Below are positions 13,763-59,802 of a DNA stretch of 64,000 nt, one piece after another. The notes under the pieces are model-generated. The model was not told the DNA's origin. It saw nothing but the letters and a program-made list of their open reading frames with translations, and did no database searches. The stretch covers positions 137,501 through 201,500 of the forward strand of contig NZ_CP161920.1 of NCBI RefSeq assembly GCF_040819555.1. Direction: 5' to 3'. Every line of letters begins with the position of its first letter. Position 1 is the stretch's first letter. The position numbers and the translations under genes are program-made. This DNA is from Nitratireductor sp. GISD-1A_MAKvit (GTDB lineage: Bacteria; Pseudomonadota; Alphaproteobacteria; Rhizobiales; Rhizobiaceae).

Positions 13763-15404
13763 TCAGCTTCCGCGTAGTTCCATGATGCGCTTCACCATGC
13801 CGCCGGTTGCTGAATCACGGCTTTCGGCACTGGCCTTGCCCTCCACGACGGGCAGCAGCTCGGTCGCCAGTTCCTTGCCCAGCTCCACCCCCCATTGATC
13901 GAAGGCATTGATGCCGAAGAGCTGCGCTTCCACGAAAACACGATGTTCGTAGAGCGCGATCAGCCGGCCAAGCGCGAACGGGTCGAGCTTTCGATAGAGA
14001 AGCGTGAGCGAGGGCCGGTTGCCGGTGAACACACGGTGCGGCGCAAGGCGCTTTGCCTCGGCCTCCGGCACGCCCTTTTCCAGAAGCTGGGTCTCGGCCT
14101 CTTCCAGTGTACGGCCTTTCATCAGCGCTTCCGCCTGTGCCAGGCAATTGGCGACAAGCAGATCGTGATGATGCCCGAGTCCCGGCTCATGCCCTTCCGC
14201 CGCCAGCATGAATTCCACCGGGATAATGTCGGTGCCCTGATGCAGAAGCTGGAAGAAGGCGTGCTGCCCGTTCGTGCCCGGCTCGCCCCAGACCAGCGGG
14301 CCCGTGGGCGTGATCACCGGCGAACCGTCAAGCTGCACGCCCTTGCCGTTCGATTCCATGTCGAGTTGCTGCAGGTAGGCAGGCAGACGCTCCAGCCTCT
14401 GGTCGTAGGGGATGATGGCCCGGGCGGGATAATCACAGACCACACGGTGCCAGTATCCGATAAGGCCAAGCATCACCGGAAGATTTTCCCTGGGCGGAGC
14501 AGATCTGAAATGCTTGTCCATGGCTTCCGCACCGGCAAGCAACCGGCGGAAATCGTCAGGGGCCGACGGCGATCATGATCGGCAGGCCGATGGCCGACCA
14601 GAGCGAATAGCGCCCGCCGACCCAGTCCCAGAAACCGAACACGCGCGTTTCATCGATGCCGAACGCCGCCACCTTGTCGAGCGCGGTGGAAACCGCGGCA
14701 AAGTGATCGCCCGTCGCCGATTGGCCGAGCTTTTGCGCGATCCATTTCTGTGCGGTGCGCGCATTGGTCATCGTCTCGACGGTGGTGAAAGTTTTCGATG
14801 CGATGATGAAAAGCGTTGTTTCGGGATCGAGGCCGGCCAGCGTGTCGGCAATGTGCGCGCCATCCACGTTGGAGACATAATGAAGGCGCGGACCGTCGTG
14901 ATAGGGCGACAGAGCGCGCGTTACCATCACCGGGCCAAGGTCGGAGCCGCCAATGCCGATATTCACCACATCGGTGAACGCCTTGCCGGTCGCGCCGCGA
15001 ATCGCGCCCCTGCGAACGCCATCGGCAAAGGCATCCATCGCCTCCAGCACCTCGCGCACATCTGGCATGACATCATCACTGTCATTGTAGACGGGACCAC
15101 CGGAGAGAGCGCGCAGCGCGGTATGAAGCACCGCGCGGTCTTCGGTCACGTTGATGTGCCTGCCCGAGAACATGTTCTCACGGGCGGCGGAGAGCCCCGC
15201 CGCTTCGGACAAATCCATCAGCAGGTCGACCGTCTTTTGGTCCACAGCCGTTCGTGAATAATCGAGTGTCAGGTCTTCAAAGGAAAGCGAGAACCGGACA
15301 AACCTCTCGGGGTCGGAAGCGAAGGCCTCACGCATGTCCATGGGCGCGGTGTTCGCGCGGTGCCCGCGAAGGGCAGCGAGTGCGGATTGAAATGCCGTTT
15401 CCAA
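13763..15404 (-). CDS. pgi: Glucose-6-phosphate isomerase, frameshifted as given
   Basis: Phosphoglucose isomerase interconverts glucose-6-phosphate and fructose-6-phosphate. The N-terminal part (15404 to 14556) has the family sequence [16 protein letters not shown] and ends in TGA after IAVGP. The C-terminal part continues in another frame with [17 protein letters not shown] and has GVELGKELA near the end. Removing one base from the GGGGCC at 14559-14564 joins them exactly and gives 546 residues, the normal size. Start: TTG at 15404 with AGGAGG 5 nt upstream. It is divergent from the MocR gene. As given the gene is broken, but the damage matches six other +1 shifts at the same hexamer, so sequence error is more likely than true loss. 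Confidence 0.88.
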
Positions 15405-15566
15405 GGGGGCCTCCTGCAAAAAGAAACGCCGTTCTTTTACCAGACAAAACGCGGTGGGACAGGGGCTTGCTGGCATTCATCAATTTTCTTGTTGGAACAA
15501 TCAATTGTACCAGGGTTGACATGCATTGACCCAAGGTTAGGCTCGCCCGCCGGAGAGGAAAGCCAA

Positions 15567-17060
15567 ATGTCAGCCAGAAATGATACTGCCCTGTGGACGG
15601 GCCTGTTCAAGATCTCCCCCGAATCGGGCCAGACCCTTCAGGCGCAGATCCGTCAGGCCATCGTGTCTGCGATTCTCGATCGCCAGATCGCCCCATCCAT
15701 GCCGCTTCCATCGTGCCGAATTCTCGCAGAAAAGCTCGGTGTCGCGCGCGGTACGGTGGTTCTGGCCTTTCAGCAGCTTGTCGATCAGGGGTTTCTCATC
15801 GCCCGTGAACGCCGTGGCCACTTCGTCAATCCCGAGGTGCTGGCGGCTCCTCCGCGTCCGTCCCGAAAACAGGACGACGAGAACGGCGTCGACTGGAACA
15901 GCCGTTTCCAGGTTCTTGCCAGCGCCATGCCGGAGGCGCGCAAGAATGAAGACTGGATGAAGGCTTCCTATCCCTTCGTCTACGGCCAGTTCGACCCCTC
16001 GCTTTTTCCGACCGCCGAATGGCGTGAATGCAACCGCATGGCTCTTGCCGTACTGGAAATCCGCAACTGGGCGGCCGACATGGTCGATCGCGACGATCCG
16101 CTGCTTGTCGAGCAGATCCAGGCGCGGCTTTTGCCTCGGCGCGGCATTTTCGCCAATCCCGACGAGATCCTCGTCACGCTCGGATCGCAGCATGCGCTCT
16201 ACATGCTCGCCACCCTCCTCATGGCCCGCGGCAAGAAGGTCGCGGTGGAGAACCCCGGCTATCCGGATGCGCGTTCCATATTTCAGCTCGCTGGCGCGGA
16301 GATTGCCCCCGTCCCCGTCGACCGACAGGGCATCGATGTGGCGCAGATCCCGCAAGACGCGGATTTCGTCTTCGCCACGCCCAGCCATCACTGCCCCACC
16401 ATGGTGCCGCTCAGCCAGGCACGCCGCGAGGCGCTGCTGGAGGCGGCCGAGCGCAATGACTGGATCGTCATCGAGGACGATTATGACAGCCAGCTCGCCG
16501 ACGAGCGCCCGCAGGCAGCCCTCAAGGGGCTCGACCGCAATGGCCGTGTCGTGCATCTGGGTTCCATGTCCAAGACGCTCGCGCCCGGCCTGCGCATGGG
16601 ATACATCGTGGCGCCTGCAGACCTGATCGCCGAACTCCGCGCACTGCGTCGCTTCATGCTGCGCCATCCGCCGGCAAACAACCAGCGCGCCGTTGCGCTG
16701 TTCCTGTCGCTCGGCCATCACGACACGCTGGTGCGGCGCATCTCGGCAGCCTTCGAGGAGCGGCGCGAGAAACTCTATCAGGCAGTTGGCAACATACTTC
16801 CGGACTGGAATGCGGCCGACATTCGCGGCGGCACCTCGCTCTGGCTCGAAGGCCCGCCCGGTCTCGATTCGGCCGTGCTTGCCAAATCCGCCGCTCGCCG
16901 CAGTGTCCTGATCGAGCCAGGAGCACGCTTCTTTCACGGGAGCACCCATCCGACACGTTTCATGCGGCTTGGCATCTCGTCCATCGCGGCGCAGCAGATC
17001 GAGCCCGGTATCCGCGAGCTTGCGGCAGCAGCCTCCGAATACCGACGCGCTGCAGCATAA
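15567..17060 (+). CDS. MocR/PdxR-type GntR regulator with aminotransferase domain
   Basis: A 497-residue regulator. Residues about 15-85 are a GntR winged helix (LPSCRILAEKLGVARGTVVLAFQQL). From ~120 on it is a fold-type I aminotransferase-like domain with the PLP-lysine K336 in SMSKTLAPGLRMGYIV and a DDYDSQ segment before it. These proteins sense PLP or PLP-amine adducts and control neighbouring genes. The start at 15567 has GGAGAGG upstream. It is divergent from pgi. The intergenic region holds TTGACA at 15516-15521 and a repeated TTGAC ten bases later. What it regulates is unknown; MocR proteins control GABA, taurine, ectoine or pyridoxine genes in relatives. Confidence 0.88.
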   Translation: MSARNDTALWTGLFKISPESGQTLQAQIRQAIVSAILDRQIAPSMPLPSCRILAEKLGVARGTVVLAFQQLVDQGFLIARERRGHFVNPEVLAAPPRPSRKQDDENGVDWNSRFQVLASAMPEARKNEDWMKASYPFVYGQFDPSLFPTAEWRECNRMALAVLEIRNWAADMVDRDDPLLVEQIQARLLPRRGIFANPDEILVTLGSQHALYMLATLLMARGKKVAVENPGYPDARSIFQLAGAEIAPVPVDRQGIDVAQIPQDADFVFATPSHHCPTMVPLSQARREALLEAAERNDWIVIEDDYDSQLADERPQAALKGLDRNGRVVHLGSMSKTLAPGLRMGYIVAPADLIAELRALRRFMLRHPPANNQRAVALFLSLGHHDTLVRRISAAFEERREKLYQAVGNILPDWNAADIRGGTSLWLEGPPGLDSAVLAKSAARRSVLIEPGARFFHGSTHPTRFMRLGISSIAAQQIEPGIRELAAAASEYRRAAA

Positions 17061-17072
17061 AGGCAGACACTT

Positions 17073-18906: not shown

Positions 18907-19704
18907 CTAACCCTTGAAGACCGGCTTGCGCTTTTCAAGAAACGCCGAGACACCCTCGCGGTAGTCGTCCGAGCGGCCGGCTTCGCGCTGCAACTCGCGC
19001 TCCAGCTCAAGCTGCGCATCGAGCGAGCTTCCGGGTGCGGCGTGGATCGCCTTCTTGATCAGGCCGTAGGCGTGGGTCGGTCCGCTGGCCAGTTTCTCCA
19101 CGAGCGCCTCCGCCTCGCTCATCAGCGCATCATCTTCGACCGCACGCCAGATCAGCCCCCAGTTTGCAGCATCCTCCGCCGAGAGCGGCTCGCCGGTCAG
19201 CGCCAGCGCCTTGGCGCGCGGCTCGCCCAGAATGCGCGTCAGGAACCAGGTGCCGCCAGAATCCGGCACGAGGGCAATCTTCGCAAAGGCCTGAATGAAC
19301 TTCGCCGATTTCGCGGCCAGCACGATGTCGCATGCGAGTGCAATGTTGGCGCCCGCGCCAGCGGCCACACCATTCACCGCGCAGACGATGGGCTTGTTCA
19401 TTCCACGCAGCTTGCGCACCAGCGGATTGTAAAAATTCTCGATCGTGTAGCCGAGGTCCGGCTTCTCTTCGAGCTTGGCGGGATCACGGTCACCCAGATC
19501 CTGCCCGGCACAGAAGCCGCGCCCGGCTCCTGTTAAAAGCACCGCGCGGCAGGTGCCATCGGCAGAGCACGCTTCCAGCGCCTCGCGCAGTGCCGTGTGC
19601 TGTTCCTCATTGAACGAGTTCAGCTTCTCCGGACGATTGAGCGTGATGCGGTGCCATCCGTCATGGCGTTCGTGAAGCACGGTCTGCGAAGTCGCGGTGC
19701 CCAT
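18907..19704 (-). CDS. Enoyl-CoA hydratase/isomerase, PaaG-like
   Basis: A 265-residue crotonase-fold enzyme. The oxyanion-hole strand GAGRGFCAGQDLGDRDP and the later AGAGANIALACDIVLAA/DSGGTWFLTR segments match 2-(1,2-epoxy-1,2-dihydrophenyl)acetyl-CoA isomerase (PaaG), including the aspartate of VPDSGG. In phenylacetate catabolism that enzyme forms the oxepin-CoA. Other paa genes are not in the window, so it may instead serve fatty-acid or another aromatic pathway. Size is normal and the C-terminus FLEKRKPVFKG is typical. Confidence 0.82.
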   Translation of the reverse strand: MGTATSQTVLHERHDGWHRITLNRPEKLNSFNEEQHTALREALEACSADGTCRAVLLTGAGRGFCAGQDLGDRDPAKLEEKPDLGYTIENFYNPLVRKLRGMNKPIVCAVNGVAAGAGANIALACDIVLAAKSAKFIQAFAKIALVPDSGGTWFLTRILGEPRAKALALTGEPLSAEDAANWGLIWRAVEDDALMSEAEALVEKLASGPTHAYGLIKKAIHAAPGSSLDAQLELERELQREAGRSDDYREGVSAFLEKRKPVFKG

Positions 19705-19774: not shown

Positions 19775-20950
19775 TTATTCGAAAACGATGGCCGGTGCTT
19801 CTTCTGCTGAACTCTGCATCGCGGCTTCGAGATGCGTCCGCACCCTTCGCGCAATCTCCTTGTAAACCATAGCCTGAACGCCATCGGGGATCGACGCTAC
19901 GACCGGCGTCCCCGCGTCGGAGGTTTCGCGCACATCCATTGTCAGAGGCACTTCGCCGAGGAAGGGCACACCCAGCCGCTCTGCCTCCGCCTTCGCGCCG
20001 CCATGGCCAAATATGTCATAGCGCTTGCCCGTGTCGGGGGCCACGAAATAGCTCATGTTCTCGACGATGCCGAGCAGTGGCACATCCACCCGCTTGAACA
20101 TGTTGAGCCCCTTGCGGGCGTCGATCAAGGCCAGATCCTGCGGCGTGGAAACGATCACCGCACCGGCCAGCGGCACCTGCTGCGCCATGGTGAGCTGCGC
20201 GTCACCCGTGCCGGGCGGCATGTCGACCACCAGGACGTCGAGTTCGCCCCAGGCAACGTCACGCAGCATCTGGCGAAGCGCCGAAACGACCATCGGTCCG
20301 CGCCAGATCATCGGCGTGTCTTCTTCAACCAGGAAGCCCATGGACATGACCTTCACGCCAAAGGCCTCCATCGGCTTTAGCGTCTTGCCATCGGCAGTCT
20401 CCGGCTTGCCTTTCAGCCCCAGAAGACGCGGCATGGAAGGTCCGTAAATGTCTGCATCCAGAATGCCGACCTTCAGATCCAGCGCCTTCAACCCCAGCGC
20501 CAGGTTGACCGCCGTGGTGGACTTGCCGACGCCACCCTTTCCGCTCGCAACGGCGATGATCGCCTTGATGCCCGGAACATCCTGCTTGGCCGGTTGCTGG
20601 CCGGCCTGCGCGGCTGGTCCGCCCGGCGCGGGACGCTGTGATGTCGGACGCTGCGGCGCAGGCTTGGGGCGTGGTGGCGGTGTCGTGCCCATGCCACCCC
20701 CCGCCTTCTCGGCCGTCAGCGCAACCATCGCCCCCTTCACGCCCGGCAGCGATTTGACGGCATTCTCAGCCGCCTGGCGCAGCGGCTCCAGTTCCTGCGC
20801 GCGTTTGGCGGGAACCGTTATCGAAAAGAAAACCTTGCCATCAGCGATGAAGATCTCGGAAACCAGTCCCCGGGAAACGATATCGCCTTCGAGGTCGGGG
20901 CCCTTCACGGACCTTAAGCGGTCGATGACGGTCTGTCTGTCGAGAGTCAT
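19775..20950 (-). CDS. apbC: Mrp/ApbC iron-sulfur cluster carrier ATPase
   Basis: A 391-residue P-loop protein that carries and transfers Fe-S clusters to apoproteins. Layout: an N-terminal MIP18 (DUF59) domain to ~80, a Pro/Gln-rich linker at ~88-122, then the ATPase with the deviant Walker A SGKGGVGKSTTAV (P-loop 137-144) and VVDMPPGTGD. The ATG at 20950 is preferred over a GTG two codons upstream. It is divergent from the LysR gene ahead of fds, whose products need many Fe-S clusters; a functional link is plausible but not shown. Confidence 0.92.
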   Translation of the reverse strand: MTLDRQTVIDRLRSVKGPDLEGDIVSRGLVSEIFIADGKVFFSITVPAKRAQELEPLRQAAENAVKSLPGVKGAMVALTAEKAGGGMGTTPPPRPKPAPQRPTSQRPAPGGPAAQAGQQPAKQDVPGIKAIIAVASGKGGVGKSTTAVNLALGLKALDLKVGILDADIYGPSMPRLLGLKGKPETADGKTLKPMEAFGVKVMSMGFLVEEDTPMIWRGPMVVSALRQMLRDVAWGELDVLVVDMPPGTGDAQLTMAQQVPLAGAVIVSTPQDLALIDARKGLNMFKRVDVPLLGIVENMSYFVAPDTGKRYDIFGHGGAKAEAERLGVPFLGEVPLTMDVRETSDAGTPVVASIPDGVQAMVYKEIARRVRTHLEAAMQSSAEEAPAIVFE

Positions 20951-22074: not shown

Positions 22075-22548
22075 ATGCAGCAAGCACGTACCGAAATCGC
22101 TTCTGCGGTCGAACCGATCATCGATCGCTGGAAGAATGAAGAAGGCCCGTTACTACCCATTCTCAATGGGATTCAGCGGGAGCTTGGTCATGTGCCGCGT
22201 GACAGCCTGCCCATCATTGCCGAAGCTCTGAACCTGTCCCGCGCCGAAGTTTATGGCGTTGTCTCGTTTTATCACGACTACCGCGAGAAACCGGCGGGCC
22301 GCCATGTGCTAAAACTGTGCCGGGCTGAAGCCTGCCAGTCCATGGGCGGCGATGCCATTGCCGAAAAGCTGCAGAAGCTGCTTGGCATCAAGTTTCACGA
22401 GACCTCAGCCGATGGAGCGGTGACGCTGGAGCCCGTCTATTGCCTTGGCCTGTGCGCCTGTGCGCCCTCCGCCATGCTCGACGGCGAGGTGATTGGCCGT
22501 ATCGATGAAGCGCGGGCGGAAGAAATCGCAGCAGAGGTGCGGGCATGA
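22075..22548 (+). CDS. fdsG: NAD-dependent formate dehydrogenase gamma subunit
   Basis: A 157-residue NuoE-like subunit carrying one [2Fe-2S] cluster of the soluble, cytoplasmic FdsGBA formate dehydrogenase. The cluster cysteines are visible as LCRAEACQSMGG followed by YCLGLCACAPSAM. The N-terminal part EEGPLLPILNGIQRELGHVP is typical of NuoE. GGGAGGG lies upstream of the ATG. The stop overlaps the fdsB start as ATGA. Confidence 0.95.
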   Translation: MQQARTEIASAVEPIIDRWKNEEGPLLPILNGIQRELGHVPRDSLPIIAEALNLSRAEVYGVVSFYHDYREKPAGRHVLKLCRAEACQSMGGDAIAEKLQKLLGIKFHETSADGAVTLEPVYCLGLCACAPSAMLDGEVIGRIDEARAEEIAAEVRA

Positions 22549-24101
22549 CCATCAACATCTACATTCCGCGCGATGCCGGAGCGCTGGCGCTAGGCGCCGA
22601 AAAGGTCGCTGCCGCCGCGCGCGAGGAAATCGAAAAACGCGGCCTTGATGCAAAGATCGTTCGCAACGGCTCGCGCGGCATGTTCTGGCTTGAACCGATG
22701 GTCGAAGTGGAGACCGCCGAGGGTCGCGTGGCCTATGGTCCGGTGAGGCCTGGCGACGTGGCTGGCCTGTTCGATGCCGGGTTGGTGGAAGGCGGCGCCC
22801 ATGATCTTTCTCTCGGCAAACCCGAGGAAATTCCGTTCCTTGCAAAGCAGACGCGGCTGACCTTCGCCCGTTGCGGCATCATCGATCCGGTCTCGCTTGC
22901 GGACTATGAGGCCCATGGTGGCCTGCGTGGCCTGCGCAACGCGCTGGAAAAAACACCGCTCGGCATCGTAGAGGAAGTCACCGAATCCGGCCTGCGTGGC
23001 CGTGGCGGCGCGGGCTTCCCGACCGGCATCAAGTGGAAGACGGTCCACGACACCGACGGCCCGCAGAAATACATCGTCTGCAACGCCGACGAAGGCGATT
23101 CGGGCACCTTCTCCGACCGCATGATCATGGAAGGCGATCCCTTCGTGCTCATCGAGGGCATGGTGATTGCCGGCATCGCGACGGGCGCGACCAAGGGTTA
23201 TGTCTATCTGCGGTCCGAATATCCCAATGTTCACAGGATCCTGAACGAGGCCATAGACGCCGCCCGTGCTGCCGGCATGCTCGGCAAAAGCGTTCTCGGT
23301 TCGAAATACGCTTTCGACATGGAAGTGCGCGTGGGTGCAGGTGCCTATGTCTGCGGCGAGGAAACCGCGCTCCTCGACAGTCTGGAAGGCAAGCGCGGGC
23401 AGGTGCGCGCCAAGCCGCCGCTGCCTGCCCATGAAGGCCTGTTCGGCAGGCCGACCGTCATCAACAATGTGATCTCGCTCGCCTCCGTGCCGATTATTCT
23501 CGACAAGGGCGGCGCCTATTACCGCGATTTCGGCATGGGCCGGTCGCGCGGCACCATTCCGATCCAGATCACCGGCAATGTGAAGCATGGCGGCCTGTTC
23601 GAAGCTGCCTTCGGCATGACGCTCGGCGAGCTCGTGGACGATATCGGCGGCGGCACCGCCACGGGTCGTCCCGTGCGCGCCGTGCAGGTGGGTGGCCCGC
23701 TCGGCGCCTACTGGCCGCGCGACCTGTTCGACACGCCCTTCGACTATGAGGCTTTCGCCGCCAAGGATGGTCTTATCGGCCATGCCGGCATCGTGGTCTT
23801 TGACGATACGGTCGACCTTCTAAAGCAGGCACGCTTCGCCATGGAGTTCTGTGCCGTGGAAAGCTGCGGCAAGTGCACGCCCTGCCGCATCGGCTCGACG
23901 CGCGGCGTCGAGGTGCTCGATCGGTTGAAACAGGGCATCGCGCCCGAAGAGCAGATCGAGACCGTGACCGATCTCTGCAACACGATGAAGTTCGGATCGC
24001 TGTGCGCGCTGGGTGGCTTCACGCCCTACCCCGTCATGAGCGCGCTGACCCATTTCCCGGAAGATTTCCGCCCCGCGCCCGTGCGCGAAGCAGCGGAATA
24101 G
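22545..24101 (+). CDS. fdsB: NAD-dependent formate dehydrogenase beta subunit
   Basis: A 518-residue NuoF-like subunit that binds FMN and NAD(H) and one [4Fe-4S] cluster and delivers electrons from formate to NAD+. It has an N-terminal thioredoxin-like region (~1-100), the FMN/NADH part with GLRGRGGAGFPTGIKW and NADEGDSGTFSDR, then YVCGEETALLDSLEGKRG. The cluster motif ESCGKCTPCRIGSTRG is close to the C-terminus. It is translationally coupled to fdsG and 10 bp upstream of fdsA. Confidence 0.96.
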   Translation: MTINIYIPRDAGALALGAEKVAAAAREEIEKRGLDAKIVRNGSRGMFWLEPMVEVETAEGRVAYGPVRPGDVAGLFDAGLVEGGAHDLSLGKPEEIPFLAKQTRLTFARCGIIDPVSLADYEAHGGLRGLRNALEKTPLGIVEEVTESGLRGRGGAGFPTGIKWKTVHDTDGPQKYIVCNADEGDSGTFSDRMIMEGDPFVLIEGMVIAGIATGATKGYVYLRSEYPNVHRILNEAIDAARAAGMLGKSVLGSKYAFDMEVRVGAGAYVCGEETALLDSLEGKRGQVRAKPPLPAHEGLFGRPTVINNVISLASVPIILDKGGAYYRDFGMGRSRGTIPIQITGNVKHGGLFEAAFGMTLGELVDDIGGGTATGRPVRAVQVGGPLGAYWPRDLFDTPFDYEAFAAKDGLIGHAGIVVFDDTVDLLKQARFAMEFCAVESCGKCTPCRIGSTRGVEVLDRLKQGIAPEEQIETVTDLCNTMKFGSLCALGGFTPYPVMSALTHFPEDFRPAPVREAAE

Positions 24102-24111
24102 GAGGACACCC

Positions 24112-27016
24112 ATGTGTGGAACTCAAGAACGTGGAACCGACAAGCGTTTCGTAGAAGAAATCGACTACGGCACCCCCGCTGTCCGCTCTGACAAGACGGT
24201 GACGCTAACCATCGATGGAGGAACCGTCACCGTGCCGGAAGGTACCTCGATCATGCGCGCCGCACGCGAGGCCGGCATCGCCGTGCCGAAGCTCTGCGCC
24301 AACGATATGGTCAAGAGCTTCGGCTCCTGCCGCCTCTGCCTTGTCGAGATCGAGGGCAAGGGCGGCACGCCCGCCTCCTGCACCACCCCGGCCATGGACG
24401 GCATTTCCGTCAACACAAAGACCGACCGTCTCAACACCATCCGCCGCGGCGTGATGGAACTCTACATGTCCGATCATCCCGAAGACTGCGCGGCCTGTGC
24501 TGCCGGTGACTGCGAGATGGCGAACATGGCCGAGAGCGTCGGCCTGAAGCAGAACCGCTATGGCGATGACGGGGCAAACCACCTCGAACCCTCGCCCATT
24601 GGCGAGCACGGAGTGAACTTCAAGGAATTGGATGTCTCCAATCCCTATTTTGCCTATGACCCGGCGAAGTGCATCGTCTGTTCCTTATGCGTTCGCGCCT
24701 GTGAGGAGCAGCAGGGCACTTTCGCGCTCACCGTGGAAGGCCGGGGCTTTGAAAGCCGCATCACCGCCGGCATGGACGAGCCCTTCCTGCAGTCGGAATG
24801 CGTTTCCTGCGGTGCCTGCGTGCAGGCCTGCCCCACCGGCGCGCTTCAGGAAAAGTCCATTATCGAGATGGGCATGCCGGATCACTCCGCCGTCACCACC
24901 TGCGCTTATTGCGGCGTCGGCTGTTCGTTCAAGGCAGAGATGAAGGGCGAGGAAGTCGTCCGCATGGTGCCCTACAAGGATGGCAAGGCCAATCGCGGCC
25001 ATTCCTGCGTGAAGGGCCGCTTCGCCTATGGCTACGCCAACCACGAGGAACGCATCCTCAACCCGATGATCCGCGAGAAGATCACCGACCCGTGGCGCGA
25101 AGTGTCATGGGATGAGGTCTACGCGCATATCGGCAGTGAGATCGGGCGCATTCAAGAGAAATATGGCCGGGGCTCGGTGGGCGGCATCACCTCGTCGCGC
25201 TGCACCAATGAAGAGACCTATCTCGTTCAGAAACTGGTGCGCCAGGCGTTCGGCAACAACAATGTCGACACCTGCGCCCGCGTCTGCCACTCCCCCACCG
25301 GCTATGGCCTCAAAACCACGTTCGGCACCTCCGCCGGCACGCAGGATTTCGATTCGGTCGAGCACACCGATGTCGTTCTTGTCATCGGCGCCAACCCGAC
25401 GGACGCCCATCCGGTTTTCGGCTCGCGTCTCAAGAAGCGGCTGCGCGAAGGCGCGAAGCTGATCGTCCTCGACCCGCGCCGCATCGACCTCGTGCGCACG
25501 CCGCATGTGGAGGCGAGCTATCACCTGCCCTTGAAGCCCGGCACCAATGTCGCCGTGCTGACCGCACTCGCCCATGTGATCGTTTCCGAAGGTCTGTTCG
25601 ACGAAGCCTTCATCCGCGAGCGCTGCGACTGGGACGAATTCCAGGACTGGGCGAGTTTCGTTCTCCAGCCGGAAAACAGTCCCGAAACCGTCGAAAAGAT
25701 GTCCGGCGTTTCCGCCGATCTGATCCGCGGTGCTGCACGCCTTTACGCCACCGGTGGAAACGGCGCGATCTATTACGGTCTTGGCGTCACCGAGCACAGC
25801 CAGGGCTCCACCACCGTCATGGCCATTGCCAACCTCGCCATGGCCACCGGCAATATCGGCCGTCCGGGCGTGGGCGTGAACCCGCTGCGCGGTCAGAACA
25901 ACGTGCAGGGCTCCTGCGATATGGGCTCGTTCCCGCACGAGATGCCGGGCTACCGCCACATCTCCGAGGATGCGACCCGCGCGATCTACGAGAGCCTGTG
26001 GGGCGTGAAGCTCGACAATGAGCCGGGGCCTGCGCATCCCCAACATGCTGGACGCTGCCGTAGAAGGCTCCTTCAAGGCGCTTTACGTGCAGGGCGAAGA
26101 CATTCTCCAGTCCGACCCCAACACGCATCACGTGGCTGCCGGCCTTGAGGCGATGGAATGCGTCATCGTTCACGATCTCTTCCTGAACGAGACCGCCAAT
26201 TACGCCCATGTGTTCCTGCCGGGCTCCACCTTCCTTGAGAAGGACGGCACCTTCACCAATGCCGAACGCCGCATCAACCGCGTCCGCAAGGTGATGGAAC
26301 CCAGGAACGGCTATGCCGACTGGGAGGTCACGCAGGACATGGCCCGCGCGCTGGGCCAGAACTGGAACTACACGCATCCGTCCGAGATCATGGCCGAGAT
26401 CGCGGCCACCACGCCGAGCTTTGCCGGCGTGACCTATGAGCTTCTGGAAAAAGAAGGCTCGGTGCAATGGCCGTGCAACGAGAAGGCCCCCACCGGCACG
26501 CCCGTTATGCATACGGACGGCTTCGTGCGCGGCAAGGGCAAGTTCGTGCGCACCGCCTATGTGGCGACCGATGAGAAGGTCGGCCCGCGCTTCCCACTGC
26601 TGCTCACCACCGGCCGCATCCTCTCGCAATACAATGTTGGCGCACAGACCCGCCGCACGGAGAATGTCGTCTGGCACGACGAGGATCTTCTGGAGATCCA
26701 TCCTTTCGACGCCGAGAATCGCGGCATCCGCGAGGGTGACTGGGTAAAGCTCAAGAGCCGCTCTGGCGAGACCAGCCTGCGCGCCACCATCACGGAGCGC
26801 GTTGCGCCGGGTGTCGTCTACACCACCTTCCACCACCCGGCCACGCAGGCCAATGTGGTGACGACCGAATATTCCGACTGGGCCACCAACTGCCCCGAAT
26901 ACAAGGTCACGGCGGTGCAGGTTTCGCCCTCCAACGGCCCGACCGAGTGGCAGGAGGATTATGAAGAGCACGCCCGCCAAAGCCGCCGCATCGTGCATGT
27001 GGAGGCGGCGGAGTAG
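24112..27016 (+). CDS. fdsA: NAD-dependent formate dehydrogenase alpha (molybdenum) subunit, frameshifted as given
   Basis: The catalytic subunit. It oxidises formate to CO2 at a bis-MGD molybdenum centre and passes electrons through Fe-S clusters to FdsB/G. The N-terminus has a [2Fe-2S] ferredoxin domain (C62, C73, C76, C90), further Cys clusters (CIVCSLCVRAC, CVSCGACVQAC, CAYCGVGC) and the Mo-ligand Cys392-His393 in CARVCHSPTG. The first frame runs past LDNEPG into nonsense and stops at 26148; the continuation RIPNMLDAAVEGSFKALYVQ is in another frame. Dropping one base of the GGGGCC at 26025-26030 restores 967 residues, the normal size. GGAGGACACCC precedes the ATG. Confidence 0.93.
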
Positions 27017-27068
27017 GGTGATGTGTGCTGGCGGTGGTGTGATCAGGGATGCGCCAACCTATCGGCCC

Positions 27069-27215
27069 CCTTCTCCCCGTGTGCGGGGAGAAGGTGAGGA
27101 TGAGGGGCGAGCGCCACCCGTTGATGAGATCGCCGTTTCGAAATGTGATTGTCAAACGCTGACGCCCGCCCCTCAACCCCCTGCCGGGACCTTCTCCCCG
27201 CACACGGGGAGAAGG
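27069..27215. repeat. Pair of RIME-like palindromes between fdsA and fdhD
   Basis: Two near-perfect palindromes (CCTTCTCCCC, a short loop, then GGGGAGAAGG) at 27069-27094 and 27190-27215 flank ~95 bp with related CACCC/GAGGGG stretches. This matches my recollection of rhizobial intergenic mosaic elements (RIME). It interrupts the fds operon in its 258-bp non-coding gap and could act as an RNA hairpin affecting expression of fdhD and fdsD. Confidence 0.75.
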
Positions 27216-27274
27216 GCGCCTTCGCCTCGGCTATTGCCTTATCTCCGGTCAGGCGCCGAAGGGGCCAACCGGCC

Positions 27275-28099
27275 ATGACCCATCCCCCCGCCACAGCCCG
27301 CGTTTCCAGAACGGCCCGCCGCACCGGCGGAACGAAGGTCAACCCACGCACCGTTCCCGAGGAGACGCCCATCGCGCTTTCCTATGGCGGCACCACCCAT
27401 GCTGTGATGATGGCGACACCCGCAGATCTCGAAGACTTCGCCCTCGGCTTCAGTGTGACGGAAGGCATCGTTGCGAGCGCCGAAGAGATCGAAACCTTTA
27501 CCGTTCAGGAACTCGGCCCCGGCATCGACCTGCAGATACGCCTGCGCGATGCGGCCAACACCCGCTTCGAGGCGCGTCGCAGGCGGCTGGCCGGTCCGGT
27601 CGGCTGCGGCCTTTGCGGCATCGAGAGCATTGAAGAAGCGATGCGCTCGGTGGCGGAAACGGCGTCCCGGCAGCGCTTCACCGCTGCCGAGATCACCAAT
27701 GCCGTCAGCGAACTGCACGAGTTTCAGGAACTTCACAAGGCCACCGGTGCCGTCCACGCTGCCGGTTTCTACGTTCCCGGCAAAGGCATTGTCGCAGCGC
27801 GCGAAGATGTGGGCCGGCACAATGCGCTCGACAAGCTGGCCGGTGCTCTGGTGAAGGCCGGCAGCGAGCGCCAAAACGGCGCGGTGATCGTCACCTCGCG
27901 CGTCTCGGTCGAGATGGTGCAGAAAACCGCCGCCATCGGCGCACCGCTCATTGCCGCCGTATCAGCCCCGACAGCGCTGGCCATCCGCACGGCGGAAACC
28001 GCCGGCATGACCCTCGTCGCCCTCGTGCGCGGCGAGGAGTTCGACATTTTCACCCATCCCGAACGCGTAAATATTGGAGCGGCCAGACATGTCGCATGA
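27275..28099 (+). CDS. fdhD: Formate dehydrogenase accessory sulfurtransferase FdhD/FdsC
   Basis: A 274-residue protein that passes sulfur to the molybdenum cofactor of formate dehydrogenase, needed for activity. The paired cysteines are present in GPVGCGLCGIESIEEA, along with GIVAAREDVGRHNALDKLAG and the C-terminal VALVRGEEFDIFTHPERV typical of FdhD. The ATG at 27275 is chosen because upstream codons lie in the repeat region. Its 3' end overlaps fdsD by 11 bp. Confidence 0.95.
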   Translation: MTHPPATARVSRTARRTGGTKVNPRTVPEETPIALSYGGTTHAVMMATPADLEDFALGFSVTEGIVASAEEIETFTVQELGPGIDLQIRLRDAANTRFEARRRRLAGPVGCGLCGIESIEEAMRSVAETASRQRFTAAEITNAVSELHEFQELHKATGAVHAAGFYVPGKGIVAAREDVGRHNALDKLAGALVKAGSERQNGAVIVTSRVSVEMVQKTAAIGAPLIAAVSAPTALAIRTAETAGMTLVALVRGEEFDIFTHPERVNIGAARHVA

Positions 28100-43309: not shown

Positions 43310-44315
43310 ATGCTCCGTTTCTTTCTCTCCAGGCTGGCGCTGTTGATCCCCACCTTCATCGGGGTGTCCATCGTGGCCTTTTCCTTCATTCGCCTCCTGC
43401 CCGGCGATCCGATCATGCTTCTGGCCGGCGAACGCGGCATGAGCGAGGAGCGCTACCAGCAGCTCCAGGCGCTTTACGGCTTCGATCAGCCTCTGTTCGT
43501 TCAGTATTTCAACTACATGACGGACCTGCTGCAGGGTGATTTCGGCACCTCCATCGTCACCAAACGGCCCGTGCTGCAGGAGTTTCTGACCCTGTTCCCG
43601 GCGACGATCGAGCTCTCGCTGTGCGCGATCATCGTGGCGGTTGCCATTGGCGTTCCGCTCGGTGTGATCGCGGCGGTCCGGCGCGGTTCGTGGCTTGATC
43701 AAACGGTGATGGGGGCGGCCCCTTGTCGGCTATTCCATGCCGATTTTCTGGTGGGGCCTGCTTTTGATCATCTTCTTCTCCGGCATTCTTGGCTGGACAC
43801 CGGTTTCGGGCCGCATCTCGCTGCTCTATTTCTTTCCGCAGGTCACCGGCTTCATGCTGATCGACAGTCTTCTGTCGGGACAGGCGGGCGCGTTCAGATC
43901 TGCGCTGTCGCATCTCATTCTGCCGACCATCGTGCTGGCCACGATCCCGCTTGCGGTGATCGCCCGTCAGACGCGCTCGGCCATGCTGGAAGTGCTGGGC
44001 GAAGACTATGTGCGCACGGCGCGCTCGAAGGGCCTGCCGCCGCGCCGGGTGATCGGCCTGCATGCGCTGCGCAACGCGCTCATCCCCGTGGTGACCACGA
44101 TCGGTCTGCAGGTGGGTGTGCTTCTGGCCGGCGCGATCCTCACCGAAACGATCTTCTCCTGGCCGGGCATCGGCAAGTGGATGGTCGATAGCGTATTCAA
44201 ACGCGATTATGCCGTGGTGCAGGGCGGGCTTCTGCTCATTGCCGCCATCATCATGATCGTGAACCTGATCGTGGATGTTCTCTACGGTCTGATCAATCCG
44301 AGAATCAGGCACTGA
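43310..44315 (+). CDS. dppB: Dipeptide ABC transporter permease DppB, frameshifted as given
   Basis: An inner-membrane permease. The first part (MLRFFLSRLALLIPTFIGVS to DQTVMGAA) runs out of frame, while the second part resumes as LVGYSMPIFWWGLLLIIFFS in another frame and ends with DVLYGLINPRIRH. Removing one C of GGCCCC at 43717-43722 gives a continuous 334-residue DppB with the EAA loop YVRTARSKGLPPRRVIGLHALRN. It is 59 bp after dppA and 2 bp before dppC. All motifs are intact, which argues against an old pseudogene. Confidence 0.9.
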
Positions 44316-46988: not shown

Positions 46989-47895
46989 CGTCATCCCGGA
47001 AGCCGCAGGCTATCCGGGACCCATTGGAAGACTATCTTGGAGCGCAACACGGTTCTGCTTCGGGCCCGTGTTGAGCCATCGGCTCCTTCTGCGGAGATCG
47101 GCCGCGCCTCTCAATAGGCCCGGCTCGCGCTACGCCTGGCCGGGATGACGAAGGCGGATAGATCGCGCCAACCCGTCATCCCGGAAGCCGCAAGCTATCC
47201 GGGACCCACTGGAAGATTGTCATGAAGCGCGGCCCGGTACTGCATCGGGCGCGGGTTGGGCCACCTGCTCCTGTTGTGGAGAGGGGCCGCGCCCCTCAAT
47301 GGGTCCCGGCTCGCGCTGCGCTCGGCCGGGATGACGAAGGCGGATAGATGCACCAACCCGTCCTCCCGGAAGCCGCAGGCTATCCGGGACCCACTGGAAG
47401 ACTATCTTGGAGCGCAACACGGTTCTGCTTCAGGCGCGGGTTGGGCCACCTGCTCCTTCTGCGGAGATCGGCCGCGCATCTCAATGGGTCCCGGCTCGCG
47501 CTTCGCCTGGCCGGGATGACGAAGGCGGATAGATCGCGCCAACCCGTCATCCCGGAAGCCGCAGGCTATCCGGGACCCATTGGAAGACTATCTTGGAGCG
47601 CAACACGGTTCTGCTTCGGGCGCGTGTTGGGCTACCGGTCTTTGCTGTGGAGAGGGGCCGCGCCTCTCAATGGGTCCCGGCTCGCGCTTCGCCTGGCCGG
47701 GATGACGAAGGCGGATAGATGCACCAACCCGTCATCCCGGAAGCCGCAAGCTATCGGGGACCCACTGGAAGATTGTCATGAAGCGCGGCCCGGTTCTGCA
47801 TCGGGCGCGTGTTGGGCCACCGGCTCCTTCTGTGGAGATCGGCCGTGCCTCTCAATGGGTCCCGGCTCGCGCTGCGCTCGGCCGGGATGACGAGT
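46989..47895. repeat. Five tandem ~185-bp palindromic units
   Basis: Units start at 46989, 47174, 47359, 47545 and 47730. Each opens with CGTCATCCCGGAAGCCGCA and CTATCCGGGACCCA, and closes with GGGTCCCGGCTCGCGC and CCGGGATGACG, so every unit can fold into a long hairpin. Centres are of two kinds: units 1, 3 and 4 carry GACTATCTTGGAGCGCAACA, units 2 and 5 GATTGTCATGAAGCGCGGCC. Linkers alternate ATCGCGCCAACC and ATGCACCAACC. No reading frame in it resembles a protein. It lies between the convergent dppF and LysR genes. Elements of this sort are common singly in alphaproteobacterial intergenic DNA. Confidence 0.88.
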
Positions 47896-47920
47896 ACGTG
47901 CCTCCCTCCCCCGTGTTCCA

Positions 47921-49732: not shown

Positions 49733-51016
49733 CTAATCGAATGCCAGGCTGGGCAGGAACAGCGCGATCTGCGGGAAGAAGATCAGCGCAGCGGAAACGC
49801 CGAGCAGGATGAGCGTGAACGGCGGAATGCCCCGTATCACATCCATGTAGGGTCGCTTGAATATGGCTATGGCCGTGAAGATATCACACCCGAACGGTGG
49901 TGTGGCCGAGCCGATGGCCACCTGCAGCGTGATGATCGTGCCCACCAGAACCTTGTCGAGGCCGACCGAATCCACCACCGGCGCGAAGATCGGCACCAGC
50001 ACCAGGATCACCACGATCGGATCGACAAACATGCAGCCGACGAAGAAGGCGATCGAGATGACGGCGAGCACCATTTTCGGCCCCATCTCGTCGATGCCGA
50101 TGGATCCCAGAATCTGCTGTGGAATCTGGGCGAAGGAAATGACCCATGAAAAGGCCGTGCCGGCAGCGACGAGAATGAACACCACGGCGGTGATGAGGCC
50201 GGTGGATTTGGAGATCTTGTAGATGTCGGCCACGCTCAGCGAGCGGAAGATCACCAGTTCCAGAAACAGCGCATAGGCCACGCAGATGGCCGCCGCCTCG
50301 GTGGGGCTGACGATGCCGCCATAAATGCCGCCAACGATGATGACCGGAAAGAACAGTGGCCAGATGGCCGCACGCACCGCCGCCACGCGCTCGCCCCATG
50401 GTGCCTTCGGCTCGGTCGGCACGCCCTTCACGATCGCATAGATGATGCAATAGGCCGAGAACAGAACCAGGAGCAGAAGCCCGGGCCCGATGCCGGCGAT
50501 GAACAGCTCGGCGATCGAGGTCTTGGAGACGACACCATAGATGATCATGCCGATGGAAGGCGGGATCAGGAAGGCGATGTCACTGGCGTTGATGATGAGC
50601 GCCAGAACGAAGGAATCGTTGTAGCCGGCCTTCAGCATGCGCGGACGCAGCGGCGAACCCACGGCAACCACCGTGGCCTGCGTGGAGCCGGACACCGCGC
50701 CAAACAGCGTGCACGCCGTGGCGGTGGAGACGGCCAGGCCGCCCTTGATGTGGCCGATGAACTTCATGACCATGTCGATCAGACGATCGGCCGACTGGCC
50801 GCGGGTCATGATGTCGGCGGCGAGGATGAACATGGGCACGGCAATCAGCGACGCCGGGCGAATGCCGGCCAGCATCTGCTGAACCATGAAGTCCATGCGG
50901 TCGAAACCGCCGAACAGGCCATAGAAGCCGTAGCCCGCGCCAAGAATGAGCGGAATCATCATCGGGAAGCCGAAGAGCAGCAACACGATCATGATGGTGG
51001 AGATTTTGAGTGTCAT
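49733..51016 (-). CDS. TRAP transporter large permease, TeaC-like
   Basis: A 427-residue large membrane subunit with about 12 hydrophobic segments. DctM features include MFILAADIMTRGQSADRLIDM, FGAVSGSTQATVVAVG, SDIAFLIPPSIGMIIYGVV and SPTEAAAICVAYALF. It lies 15 bp after the small permease gene and 10 bp before the usp gene. It transports the solute captured by the TeaA-like receptor, probably ectoine or hydroxyectoine (inference). Confidence 0.93.
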   Translation of the reverse strand: MTLKISTIMIVLLLFGFPMMIPLILGAGYGFYGLFGGFDRMDFMVQQMLAGIRPASLIAVPMFILAADIMTRGQSADRLIDMVMKFIGHIKGGLAVSTATACTLFGAVSGSTQATVVAVGSPLRPRMLKAGYNDSFVLALIINASDIAFLIPPSIGMIIYGVVSKTSIAELFIAGIGPGLLLLVLFSAYCIIYAIVKGVPTEPKAPWGERVAAVRAAIWPLFFPVIIVGGIYGGIVSPTEAAAICVAYALFLELVIFRSLSVADIYKISKSTGLITAVVFILVAAGTAFSWVISFAQIPQQILGSIGIDEMGPKMVLAVISIAFFVGCMFVDPIVVILVLVPIFAPVVDSVGLDKVLVGTIITLQVAIGSATPPFGCDIFTAIAIFKRPYMDVIRGIPPFTLILLGVSAALIFFPQIALFLPSLAFD

Positions 51017-51031
51017 GGTCGCTGGCCCCGG

Positions 51032-51622
51032 TCAGATCTCGATTTCGTCTTCTTCGTATCCCTCCAGGACATGCGTGGAGAGATAAATGTCCTTCTGGAC
51101 GACGTTCTTCAGCGCGGTGAGCGCATATTGGACACCGGTGATGAAGAACCCGACGGGGACCCAGAGATAGATCCAGTAGACGGGGATCTGCATGGCCGAA
51201 AGAACACGGCCGGACTTGGCCACCTTGGCGATATAGCCGATGGCGAAATAGCAGAGCGCGAACATGGTCAGCGCGGTGATCACCGTAATGACAATCATCA
51301 GCACCTTGCGCGTTTTGCCGGGCAGCGCATCGTAGAGCGCCGACATGCGGATGTGACGGCCGTGGCGGGCGGCATAGCCGATGCCGGCAAAGGTGATCAG
51401 GATGATGAGGATGCGGTTGAGTTCCTCGGAAAAGAAGATCGTGCTGCCGATCGCGCGGCTGACCACATTGGCGATCGTGTTGACCGCCATGAGCATCACG
51501 CCGAGCGCAAGCATAATCGATTCTATGCGACTGATGGCATTGTCGAACATGCCGATCACGCCGGGCAGTGTGGATTCGTATTTTTCGCTGTGCGGGTCAG
51601 ATTTTTCGTCTTCACTGCCCAT
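51032..51622 (-). CDS. TRAP transporter small permease, TeaB-like
   Basis: A 196-residue small TRAP membrane protein with four membrane segments. It has a charged N-terminus ([17 protein letters not shown]) and a [25 protein letters not shown] segment in the middle. This is longer than average DctQ, as in the Tea/Ueh group. It lies between the receptor gene (83-bp gap) and the large permease. Confidence 0.9.
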
Positions 51623-51705: not shown

Positions 51706-52726
51706 TTATTGCGTCGCCGCCTTCAGGTCTTCCTTCATCTGGTCAAGGATCTTCTTGCCGCTGTCGCCCGTCATCTCGATGAACTTCGCTTCCACCTGGG
51801 CGGCCGCTTCCTTGAAGGGAGCGCGCTGCTCTTCGGTGAGGTCGCTGATGGTCATCTCGGGCTTGGCTTCCTTGATCTTGGCAAGCGACTCTTCGCTCAG
51901 GCCCTTCTGGTATTCGAGGATGTGCTCGAACGCCGCATCGGCAGCATCCTGAACGACCTTTTTGTCCTCGTCGCTCAGGCCATCATAGAAGTCTTTGTTG
52001 GCCATCACGGCGGTGGTGAAGTTGTTATGGCCGGTGAGTGTGATCGCGCCGGTCACCTCATACATCTTCGTGGACTCGACCCAGAAGAGCGGGTTTTCCT
52101 GTCCCTGAATGATGTTGGTCTGGAGACCGCCATAGACCTCGCCCCAGGGAAGCGGCGTCGGTGTCGCACCGAATGCCTTGTAGCTTTCCACCAGAAGCGG
52201 GTTGGTCATGACGCGGAATTTCACCTCGTTGAGGTCCTCGGGCTTCTCCACCGGGTCCTTGGTGTTCATCACCACTTCGCCCTCGGGGAACATCTTGAGA
52301 AGCTCGAGGCCCTGCTCTGCATAAAGCTCGGGGAACATCTCGTTGATGGCCTTGGAATTGCGGAAGAACTCACCCAGCTCTTCCGACTTGGCCGGAAGCA
52401 GGTAGGGAACGAAGAAGACCTGTGCCTCCGGGATAAGCGCGCCGGTAAAGCCGGGCGACTGGTCGACGAACTGCAGGATGCCGGCCTGGGGCCTGCTCCA
52501 TGATGTCAGCGGATTCACCCAGCGTACCGAACGGGAAGAGCTGAATCTCGTGGTCGGAATTGGCCTCGACCTCTTCCTTGAACTTCTGGGCGTAGACGCC
52601 CTGAACGTCCGTCATCGCTTCTTCGAAAGCGTATTTCCAGGTATCCGCCTGAGCTGCAACGGCGCCTGCGAGCACGATCGCGGTGCTGGCAAGACCTGCC
52701 ATTAAGCGGGATTTGATGGAACGCAT
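51706..52726 (-). CDS. TRAP receptor, TeaA-like (ectoine type), frameshifted as given
   Basis: A periplasmic receptor with a signal peptide to ~27 (AQA). The first frame reads WKYAFEEAMTDVQGVYAQKF and ESADIMEQA, then turns to nonsense. The rest continues in another frame as QAGILQFVDQSPGFTGALIP. Removing one base of GGGGCC at 52488-52493 gives 339 residues. The segments GILQFVDQSPGFTG, AINEMFPELYAE, GLELLKMFPEGE, MTNPLLVESYKAFGATPTPL, PWGEVYGGLQT and GQENPLFWVES match, from memory, the Halomonas ectoine receptor TeaA. High-affinity ectoine/hydroxyectoine uptake is the likely role. Confidence 0.87.
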
Positions 52727-53263: not shown

Positions 53264-54905
53264 CTAGGCGCGAGCCTGTGCCTGACGCTGCAGCACTTCG
53301 CGAAGATTAAAGGCTGCTTCCATCAGATCCTTCGTGTAATCGCTCTGTGGATTGTCAAAAACCTCACTGGTCGGCCCCTCTTCCACCACCTGGCCGGACC
53401 GCATCACGATCGCATAATCGGAAAGCGCCTTCACAACCGACAGATCGTGGCTGATGAAAATGAACGATAGATTGTGGCTCGCCTGGATACGGCGCAGCAG
53501 GGTGATGATCTGCTTTTGCACCGAGCGGTCCAGGGCCGAGGTCGGCTCGTCGAGCACGATCACCGTGGGTTTTAGGATCACGGCACGGGCGATGGCGATG
53601 CGCTGCCGCTGTCCGCCTGAGAATTCGTGCGGGAAACGGTTTCGCATGGACGGATCGAGCCCGACCTCCTCCAATGCCTGGATGGCACGCCTGTCGCGCT
53701 CGCGGGCGGACAGGCCCCGGCTCATGCACCAGAAGCCCCTCGGTGATGATCTCGCCCACCGTCATGCGCGGGCTGAGCGACCCGTATGGGTCCTGAAAAA
53801 CCATCTGCAGATTGCGCCGGTAGGGCCGCATGGCCGCGCGGTCGAACCCCTGGATCGGCGTGCCCTGATAGACAACCCGCCCTTCGGACGGCAGCAGTTG
53901 CAGAAGCGCGCGACCCAGCGTTGATTTGCCCGATCCCGATTCGCCGACAATGCCGATTGTCTGCCCGGCGCGCAGTGTCAGGCCCACATTCTGCACTGCC
54001 TTCAGCTCATAGCCCGGCCCGGACAGAAAGCCCCCCTTGACCGCGAAGGTCACGCAAACATCGCGCGCATCGAGCAGGATCGGCTGATCGTCACCCACCG
54101 GCGGCTTGTGACCCTCCGGCTCCGCGCCCAGGAGCATTTTCGTGTAGTCCTTCTGCGGGCGCTGGAAGATATCATCCGTCGCGCCCGTCTCCACCACGAG
54201 CCCCTTCTGCATCACATAAACCCGGTCGGCAAAGGCTTCCACGATGCCGAGGTCGTGGGTGATGAACAGAATTGCCATGCCCAGCTTCTTCTGAAGCTCG
54301 GCCAGGAGACCGAGGATCTCCGCCTGGATGGTGACATCCAGCGCCGTTGTCGGCTCGTCGGCGATCAGCAGGTCAGGATCATTGGCGAGCGCCATGGCGA
54401 TCATCACACGCTGGCGCTGACCGCCGGACATTTCGTGCGGATAGGATTTCAGCCGTCGCTCGGGATCGGGTATGTGGACGAGCTTCAGAAGCTCCAGCGC
54501 ACGTTTACGCGCCTCCGAGGCGGAAAGACCGCCATGCACCCGGATCGGCTCGCAGATCTGTCGCTCGATCGTGTAGAGCGGATCGAGCGAGGTCATCGGC
54601 TCCTGAAAGATCATGGTGATCCTGGCGCCGCGGATCCTGTTGAGCTTCGCCCGCGGCAGGCCGATAAGCTCCTGCCCGCGATAGGTCACGGAGCCGGAAG
54701 CGGAGCCATTGTTGGCCAGAAGCCCCATGGCCGCCATCATGATCTGGCTCTTGCCAGACCCCGATTCGCCCACCACGGCGACGGTTTCACCGGCGTTCAC
54801 ATGCATGTTGACGCCGCGCACCGCCTCGACCGCACCGTCGGGCGTGTCGAAGGTGACGCGAATATCGCTTATGTCGAAGATGCGTTCTTCGTTCTGCTTC
54901 GTCAT
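53264..54905 (-). CDS. Oligopeptide ABC transporter ATPase, fused OppD-OppF type, frameshifted as given
   Basis: A double ABC ATPase. Module one has Walker A GESGSGKS at 46-53, [12 protein letters not shown] and LLIADEPT. Module two has [20 protein letters not shown] and [12 protein letters not shown]. The frame breaks after EGLLVHEPG and resumes as [20 protein letters not shown]. Removing one base of GGCCCC at 53713-53718 gives 546 residues, the normal fused length. The ATG at 54905 begins 2 bp before the permease stop codon. It is the last gene of oppABC(DF). Confidence 0.9.
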
Positions 54906-58931: not shown

Positions 58932-59414
58932 TCAGTCAACGCCGGCTTCGAAAAACACCGACGGTTTTTCTTGCGCCGCGTTGCCGATTGAATAGACGGT
59001 GTAGCGTGCTGCCGGGTCGTCCCCCATCCCGAGGGATCCGACAGGCATTCCCGGAACGGCGATCCCCCTGATGTCGGGCCGCTCGGTAAGAAGCTTTTCT
59101 AGCGCCTCAAGCGGCACATGCCCCTCCAGCACATATTTCCGGTCGCCGTCGATGACTGCGGTGTGACAGGATTCCATTTCTGCCGAGACGCCTGCCTGTT
59201 TCTTGATGGTGGAAAGGTCTTCCAGATCCACCGTCTTGATGTGGAATCCGGCCCGCTCCATGGCGTCTGCCCAGAGCTCGCAGCAGCCGCAATAAGGCGT
59301 CTTGAAAACCGTCATGGACCTGTCGTCGCCTGCCGCCGCATGTGCTGTTGCAAGCGTCGCAAGGAGTGCAATGGCTGCGCCGGCGGCCCGGCTGAATTTG
59401 TGTTTGAATGTCAT
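58932..59414 (-). CDS. DUF411 metal-binding protein
   Basis: A 160-residue secreted protein. Signal peptide ~1-27 (AHA), then a thioredoxin-like domain with TPYCGCCELWADAMERAGF, ESCHTAVIDG and YVLEGHVPLEALEKLL, the DUF411 hallmarks. The three clustered cysteines plus the later Cys-His suggest periplasmic copper binding, as for DUF411 proteins of copper-resistance clusters. The Cys-rich protein just upstream supports this. Confidence 0.9.
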   Translation of the reverse strand: MTFKHKFSRAAGAAIALLATLATAHAAAGDDRSMTVFKTPYCGCCELWADAMERAGFHIKTVDLEDLSTIKKQAGVSAEMESCHTAVIDGDRKYVLEGHVPLEALEKLLTERPDIRGIAVPGMPVGSLGMGDDPAARYTVYSIGNAAQEKPSVFFEAGVD

Positions 59415-59468
59415 GTTTCACCCTGTGTGATTTGTGATCAGTGTCTGGAAAGGTTGGAGAAACCTGCC

Positions 59469-59802
59469 TCAAAGTCTGATCGGTGGGCGAAACAGGCCAG
59501 CCATGACCGGATCGTGGGGTGAACTGCGTGGGCCCGGCGCATACGGCGAGACCGACGACGGGAAACAGGCGATGTGGATCGAGGGCAGGTAGTGGCAGTC
59601 TGTCACACAGCTCGACGCCCTGTCCGGGAGGCCGTCATCATGGGTGACACAGCACTGCATGACCTTGTGTTGCCCCATCGCATCCACAGCCGCCGGCGGG
59701 GCCGGCCACGGCCGCGCCCTGCAACGCCCTGCCTTCCACTGCCGGGAGCGCCCCGGCAATGAACAGGATGATGACCAAGATGAGCCTTTGCGCCATTCGC
59801 AT
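59469..59802 (-). CDS. Small Cys-rich secreted protein, frameshifted as given
   Basis: From ATG 59802 (AAGGA 6 nt upstream) a signal peptide MRMAQRLILVIILFIAGALP is read, but the frame stops early at CHP. After removal of one base from GGGGCC at 59698-59703 it continues into a frame with QCCVTHD, SSCVTDCHYLPSIHIAC and a C-terminal FRPPIRL, ending at 59469: 110 residues. Small exported proteins with CC...CxxxC and a terminal RPP(I/R) are common beside copper-resistance genes. I know no function for them; metal sensing or binding is a guess. It lies 54 bp upstream of the DUF411 gene. Confidence 0.65.

Follow-up and report, generated by a model that had tools for sequence, protein, structure and literature searches.

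Extra bases at GGCC runs in a Nitratireductor genome assembly probably mark chemically modified DNA sites

Seven genes that read as frameshifted in a 64,000-nucleotide stretch of the genome of Nitratireductor sp. GISD-1A_MAKvit (the window, G000:C2:137501–201500) are almost certainly unbroken in vivo. The apparent breaks belong to an assembly-wide class of length gains at GGCC runs, which we consider to be consensus errors arising from base calling at phosphorothioated GGCC sites rather than mutations, with a probability of about 0.78. The errors probably mark chemically modified sites in the DNA. Phosphorothioation of this strain's DNA, sequencing as native long reads and a causal role of the modification in the miscalls are all inferred. 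A phosphorothioate cause is favoured because GGCC-specific gains coincide with a dndABCDE gene set and with a DndC protein carrying a GGCC-type specificity loop. The genome (G000) comprises 4.12 Mb in two contigs, of which C1 is a plasmid, and Nitratireductor is an environmental genus of the Phyllobacteriaceae.

Length gains at GGCC runs in the window and beyond

Four same-genus relatives (G001, G002, G006 and G008) were aligned over the window and showed near-complete synteny with it, G001 being ~91% identical over positions 22545–28000. An earlier reading of the window (the initial annotation) had placed seven breaks at GGCCCC/GGGGCC hexamers, ascribed each of them to one extra base and proposed comparison with close relatives as a check. 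All seven hexamers were found at their coordinates, and the six alignable sites are one base longer than in each of the four relatives, which bears out the extra base at these six; the seventh (59698) has no match in nine genus genomes.

To extend the comparison, 664 kb of G000 was aligned to 640 kb of G001, giving 424.6 kb of aligned sequence, 359.7 kb of it coding. Coding regions were taken as the longest non-overlapping open reading frames (ORFs) in G001, so that distinct ORFs are not equal to annotated genes, and at least one called ORF (1,464 amino acids, lying over fdsA) is antisense to a real gene, which leaves the positions of gains unaffected. The two genomes differ by 67 in-gene frame-changing length differences, 52 being gains and 15 losses in G000. 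GG/CC runs account for 42 of the 52 gains (one base in 39 cases, two bases in 3) and for a single one of the 15 losses (Fisher p = 2.5 × 10−7 for gains versus losses), while only ~6.8% of aligned positions lie equally close to a GGCC (577/8,515 sampled). The chromosome stretch thus carries about one such gain per 8.6 kb of coding sequence.

The excess was absent from a control comparison of G002, a two-contig relative without dndC, with G001, where 2/15 gains (including a 19-base misalignment) and 2/11 losses fall at GG/CC runs (Fisher p = 3 × 10−6 for G000 versus control). It reappeared when G000 was compared with G002 (26/33 gains, 0/8 losses), and G001 compared with G002 gave 3/15 gains and 1/10 losses. 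Since the excess is seen in the G000 comparisons and not in the control, it is a property of G000. The plasmid is affected as well: aligned to 100 of the 262 kb of a N. kimnyeongensis plasmid, C1 has 7 of 10 in-gene gains and neither of 2 losses at GG/CC runs, and its gain rate (0.128 per kb over 54.7 kb of coding sequence) is close to that of the chromosome stretch (0.117 per kb). A single systematic cause, as the initial annotation had supposed for the seven window genes, is therefore upheld by the count of frameshifts by motif that it had suggested. An early count of tetramers at all positions (GGCC 28/2,507, AAAA 13/1,513) was diluted by intergenic A/T runs, and in-gene counts were used instead.

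Core motif and flanking bases

G000 has 36 longer runs and 1 shorter run among the 2,024 GG/CC runs that could be compared. The longer ones comprise 18/1,437 GGCC, 13/464 GGCCC/GGGCC and 5/123 longer runs, so that GGCC sites read as five-base runs make up 18 of the 36, or half. The hexamer GGCCCC is accordingly too narrow a motif: it describes every break inside the window, as claimed, but farther along the contig GGCC with one added base is equally frequent. Nor is GGCCCC/GGGGCC over-represented in the window (45 observed against 65.3 expected). The 44 window GG/CC runs with an arm of at least four bases include 28 of the same length as in every covering relative, 8 that exceed all covering relatives, 3 with a mixed outcome and 5 covered by fewer than two relatives.

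A general homopolymer-length error was also rejected. In coding sequence, gains occur at 29/2,697 C runs preceded by GG and at 20/34,151 C runs without a preceding GG, and C runs of at least three bases in the latter group are nearly free of gains (3/6,149). Because GG-preceded C runs gain a base far more often than other C runs, the core motif is the palindrome GGCC and not a homopolymer.

The immediate flanks have a strong influence on which sites are affected. No GGCC site directly preceded by T or directly followed by A is longer (0/815), compared with 18/622 of the remaining GGCC sites, and the affected sites are distributed over AGGCCG (equivalent to CGGCCT; 14/402), AGGCCT (3/59) and CGGCCG (1/161). 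For GGCCC, the corresponding values are 4/49 for AGGCCCG, 6/141 for CGGCCCG, 2/51 for CGGCCCT, 1/17 for AGGCCCA and 0/116 for TGGCCC.

A dnd island with a predicted GGCC-type DndC

G000 carries a chromosomal dnd island at ~2,743–2,758 kb of contig C2, with dndA on the minus strand and dndB, dndC, dndD and dndE on the plus strand, followed by a putative methyltransferase of family TIGR04096 and a phage-type integrase; PbeA, a PbeC-like protein and a GmrSD/Orf5 protein are encoded on the other side. DndC scores 690 bits against TIGR03183 (cut-off 290), and a dndC over this cut-off was found in only 1 of the 10 genus genomes, G000 itself. Matches to NCBIfam models also exceed their cut-offs for dndA (510.6 bits, cut-off 480), dndE (129, cut-off 71.85) and dndB (384.6, cut-off 328), the last ending at position 250 of the 355-position profile.

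The DndC specificity loop reads GYPAPRPKFRW and thus presents Arg-Pro-Lys. In published work, loops of the form Arg-x-Lys/Arg correspond to GGCC, with Arg-Pro-Lys in Streptomyces lividans, while Thr-Arg-Ser corresponds to GAAC/GTTC and Thr-Gln-Asn or Asn-Gln-Thr to GATC (PMC12193691). The Dnd system of G000 is predicted on this basis to be of the GGCC type. The loop rule was published independently of this genome and yet predicts the same motif as the errors, so that the DndC loop and the error motif agree. Dnd systems producing GpsGCC are described in S. lividans 1326 and Pseudomonas fluorescens Pf0-1, which have the same dndABCDE set and the Arg-x-Lys/Arg loop; the S. lividans loop is identical to that of G000, whose own modification is a prediction only (PMC12193691).

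Two of the island genes are themselves interrupted in the assembly. By tblastn, using homologues over the family cut-off, dndD falls into three frame-shifted pieces, whereas the dndB and dndD homologues in genomes G184 and G235 each lie uninterrupted in a single frame. Plasmid records with DndD homologues all gave single-piece matches (9/9). On the 40-kb stretch carrying the island, the dndB frame steps by +1 at 17015–17023, on the GGCC at 17017. The first dndD step (+1) lies at ~19244–19269, beside a CGGCCCT, and the second (+1) before ~20390, where AGGGCCG holds the sole GGCC in 20320–20400. A truly broken dndD would be expected to abolish phosphorothioation, and for this reason the genome-wide pattern can be reconciled with the apparent dndD break only by taking that break as an artefact.

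Several further observations concern the island and its relatives. The stretch around it (L182–L183, G000:C2:2735001–2775000) also encodes a PDC-S01 defence candidate and a ParB-like protein, the PbeC-like protein is of the SMC type, and the guanine-plus-cytosine content of the island is below that of its left flank. The closest DndC found (L203, G184:C7:7348–8892) is 80% identical and shows one TGA in the stretch that the search matched, though an ORF of the annotated size is open; the nearest plasmid-borne DndCs are 67% identical (Agrobacterium larrymoorei, Arthrobacter) or ~59–62% identical (Streptomyces). G001 encodes a DndC-like protein (L171, G001:C1:1137839–1138660) with a partial match of 234 bits, below the family cut-off, which is perhaps another PAPS-reductase-type defence protein.

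Proposed origin of the extra bases

Under the phosphorothioate explanation, DndA–E would place a sulfur in the backbone of both strands at GGCC, giving GpsGCC at a fraction of sites only, and native DNA would then have been read by a long-read method with a base caller untrained on phosphorothioate. Where the flanks allow it (mainly C or A on the 5′ side, T or CG on the 3′ side), the base caller would add one C or G, occasionally two, to well-modified GGCC, often enough for the error to enter the consensus. With one such error in every 8.6 kb or so of coding sequence, dozens of genes, dndB and dndD included, would seem broken. The initial annotation had suggested a tie to a modified base near GGCCC; the link to a modification is retained here through dndABCDE and the GGCC-type loop, but the core is GGCC and the mark is probably on the backbone (phosphorothioate) and not on a base.

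Published precedents bear on individual steps. Nanopore base-calling errors increase at phosphorothioate sites, where the current is disturbed, and in wild-type Salmonella ~4% of GAAC/GTTC sites are flagged, with almost none flagged without dndC (Wadley et al. 2022, PMC9069010). Raised errors at phosphorothioate sites are common to that work, where they were measured, and to ours, where they are inferred; the Salmonella data are read-level statistics at GAAC/GTTC against an amplified control, whereas ours are errors in a finished assembly at GGCC. Motif-centred nanopore consensus errors from untrained modifications are likewise known (Chiou et al. 2023, PMC10687267). The Listeria errors described there are also lineage specific and recognisable by comparison with relatives, but are mainly mismatches at GCAGC and GCTGG, as opposed to gains of one (rarely two) bases at GGCC; the main text, so far as available, does not mention phosphorothioate, our candidate cause. 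In the literature searched, to which most subscription journals are external, no prior report of assembly frameshifts caused by phosphorothioate was found.

A number of observations weigh against a phosphorothioate origin. Gains and losses off GG/CC runs also occur between G000 and G001 (10/52 gains, 14/15 losses), and the control G002 may come from another platform or polishing procedure. Only 36/2,024 GG/CC runs are affected, and a given 8-mer is affected at some of its sites only (e.g. TCGGCCTG, 4/56), which makes modification plus local context an incomplete predictor; partial occupancy would account for this. Modification-mediated nanopore errors in Listeria are mostly mismatches and not indels (PMC10687267). 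No second genome combining an RPK-type DndC with few contigs was found for replication: a strong DndC is present in 5/397 genomes in an order-level search and in 6/398 in a phylum-level search (G000 counted in both), and those other than G000 are all drafts of 20 to 200 contigs.

Competing explanations

An error of the base caller or polisher in GGCC contexts, unrelated to any modification, would fit the strong dependence on immediate flanks, which is typical of base-caller errors, and the small share of runs affected, but we regard it as unlikely. Other C runs, CCC and CCCC included, are nearly without gains, a purely sequence-driven error does not readily leave the same 8-mer wrong at some sites and correct at others, and two-contig G002, whose platform may differ, has 2/15 gains at GGCC; the coincidence with a GGCC-type DndC would also be left unexplained. 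A different modification of GGCC, either cytosine methylation by an unrecognised enzyme or a mark made by the dnd-linked TIGR04096 putative methyltransferase, is a distinctly unlikely source. GGCC methylation of the HaeIII type occurs commonly among bacteria, and the island does encode the TIGR04096 protein. A search for PF00145 cytosine-C5 methylases, however, gave no match in G000, while being positive in 10 of 14 control genomes; HaeIII-type methylation was rejected on this ground, the search not having covered every methyltransferase family. The two PF01555 enzymes of G000 both have the motif DPPY. This motif is of the adenine-methylase type, and GGCC contains no adenine. Most of the best solved relatives of the second enzyme (L184 9739–10509) methylate adenine (CcrM, MboIIA, RsrI), while two weaker hits are of the cytosine-N4 type; together with DPPY, this makes the second enzyme an unlikely marker of GGCC. 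A conventional methylase would moreover mark nearly every GGCC, yet only 14/402 AGGCCG are affected.

Real frameshift mutations, produced by a slippage hotspot or a mutator acting at GGCC, would take the deposited sequence as it reads, but are very improbable. The 42 gains affect 42 ORFs, and the 20 scanned include polA, atpD, prfC, aroA, aroB, serC, dnaJ, rpoH and pgi, whose joint loss would hardly be survivable. The presence of these genes rules against pseudogenes in the sense of non-essential or decaying genes, and real mutation, including the slippage hotspot that the initial annotation had kept as its less likely option, is not credible because polA, atpD, serC, aroA, aroB, dnaJ, rpoH and pgi are among those affected. 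Slippage should also yield losses, of which just 1/15 lies at a GG/CC run, and should act on longer C runs, which are nearly spared. Programmed ribosomal frameshifting, with genes truly out of frame and GGCC serving as a recoding signal, would explain why one motif is common to many shift sites, but its likelihood is close to negligible: 6/6 testable window orthologues are single-frame without the extra base in the four relatives, two-base gains exist (3/42), and an intergenic site (51024) is also longer.

Consequences for the deposited genome

At 42 gains per 360 kb, several hundred genes of the deposited genome would, by extrapolation, appear to be pseudogenes though intact, and studies of annotation, pangenomes or gene loss using this assembly would be misled. 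The genes that would explain the errors, dndB and dndD, are among those that appear broken. If the phosphorothioate link is true, deposited assemblies already record sites of backbone modification. More tentatively, and with rather less than even confidence, the extra bases could map, site by site, where GGCC is heavily phosphorothioated, in a genus for which we found no measured phosphorothioation in the literature. Were the extra bases such a map, the Dnd system would avoid GGCC directly preceded by T or directly followed by A and favour sites with C or A on the 5′ side and T or CG on the 3′ side. More generally, long-read assemblies left unpolished could, through an excess of frameshifts at the motif predicted from DndC, reveal phosphorothioation and its site preferences with no data beyond sequence databases, and would show that dnd genes themselves are often mis-annotated as broken.

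Affected sites and other features of the window

The six sites confirmed by alignment each have one base more than all four relatives. They lie in pgi, encoding glucose-6-phosphate isomerase (14559–14564, minus strand; orthologue L110:15927–17567, minus strand, named by PRK00179); an fdsA-like formate dehydrogenase alpha gene (26025–26030, plus strand); a gene labelled cupin in the initial annotation (33864–33869, minus strand); a dppB-like peptide ABC permease gene (43717–43722, plus strand; orthologue L112:2830–3834, plus strand); a gene for a DctP/TeaA-like TRAP solute-binding protein (52488–52493, minus strand; orthologue L112:10672–11691, minus strand); and an oppDF-like fused peptide ABC ATPase gene (53713–53718, minus strand; orthologue L112:12234–13913, minus strand). 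The orthologues of pgi and of the permease, solute-binding and ATPase genes were named by family models. For the fdsA-like gene, the window ORFs 24112–26148 and 26018–27016 match complementary parts of TIGR01591 (profile positions 1–375 and 367–672). The name cupin could not be sustained, the G001 ORF at that place (124 amino acids) matching no Pfam or NCBIfam model.

The seventh site (59698–59703, minus strand) lies in a gene for a putative secreted Cys-rich protein. Its break comes from frame reading alone: the frames step at the GGCC run, which is no independent evidence, and window positions 59400–59852 had matches in 0/9 genus genomes. Its flanks are of the affected class CGGCCCG.

Two further sites are absent from the initial annotation. 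A compound GG/CC run at 1669–1683 (no strand assigned) has one base more than the 3/3 covering relatives and makes up two of the eight rows exceeding all covering relatives. A GGCC run at 51024–51029 (plus strand) is one base longer than 3/4 relatives, being one of the mixed rows, and is intergenic, between the minus-strand ORFs 49733–51016 and 51032–51622.

The window also contains repeats. Positions 27057–27227 hold one copy of a short repeat that is dispersed between genes and has dozens of matches across nine same-genus genomes. Local repeats occupy ~47000–47900, with similar words at ~47002, 47565 and 47750, and TGGAGAGGGGCCGCGCC occurs there at two places, 47277 and 47648, ~371 bases apart.

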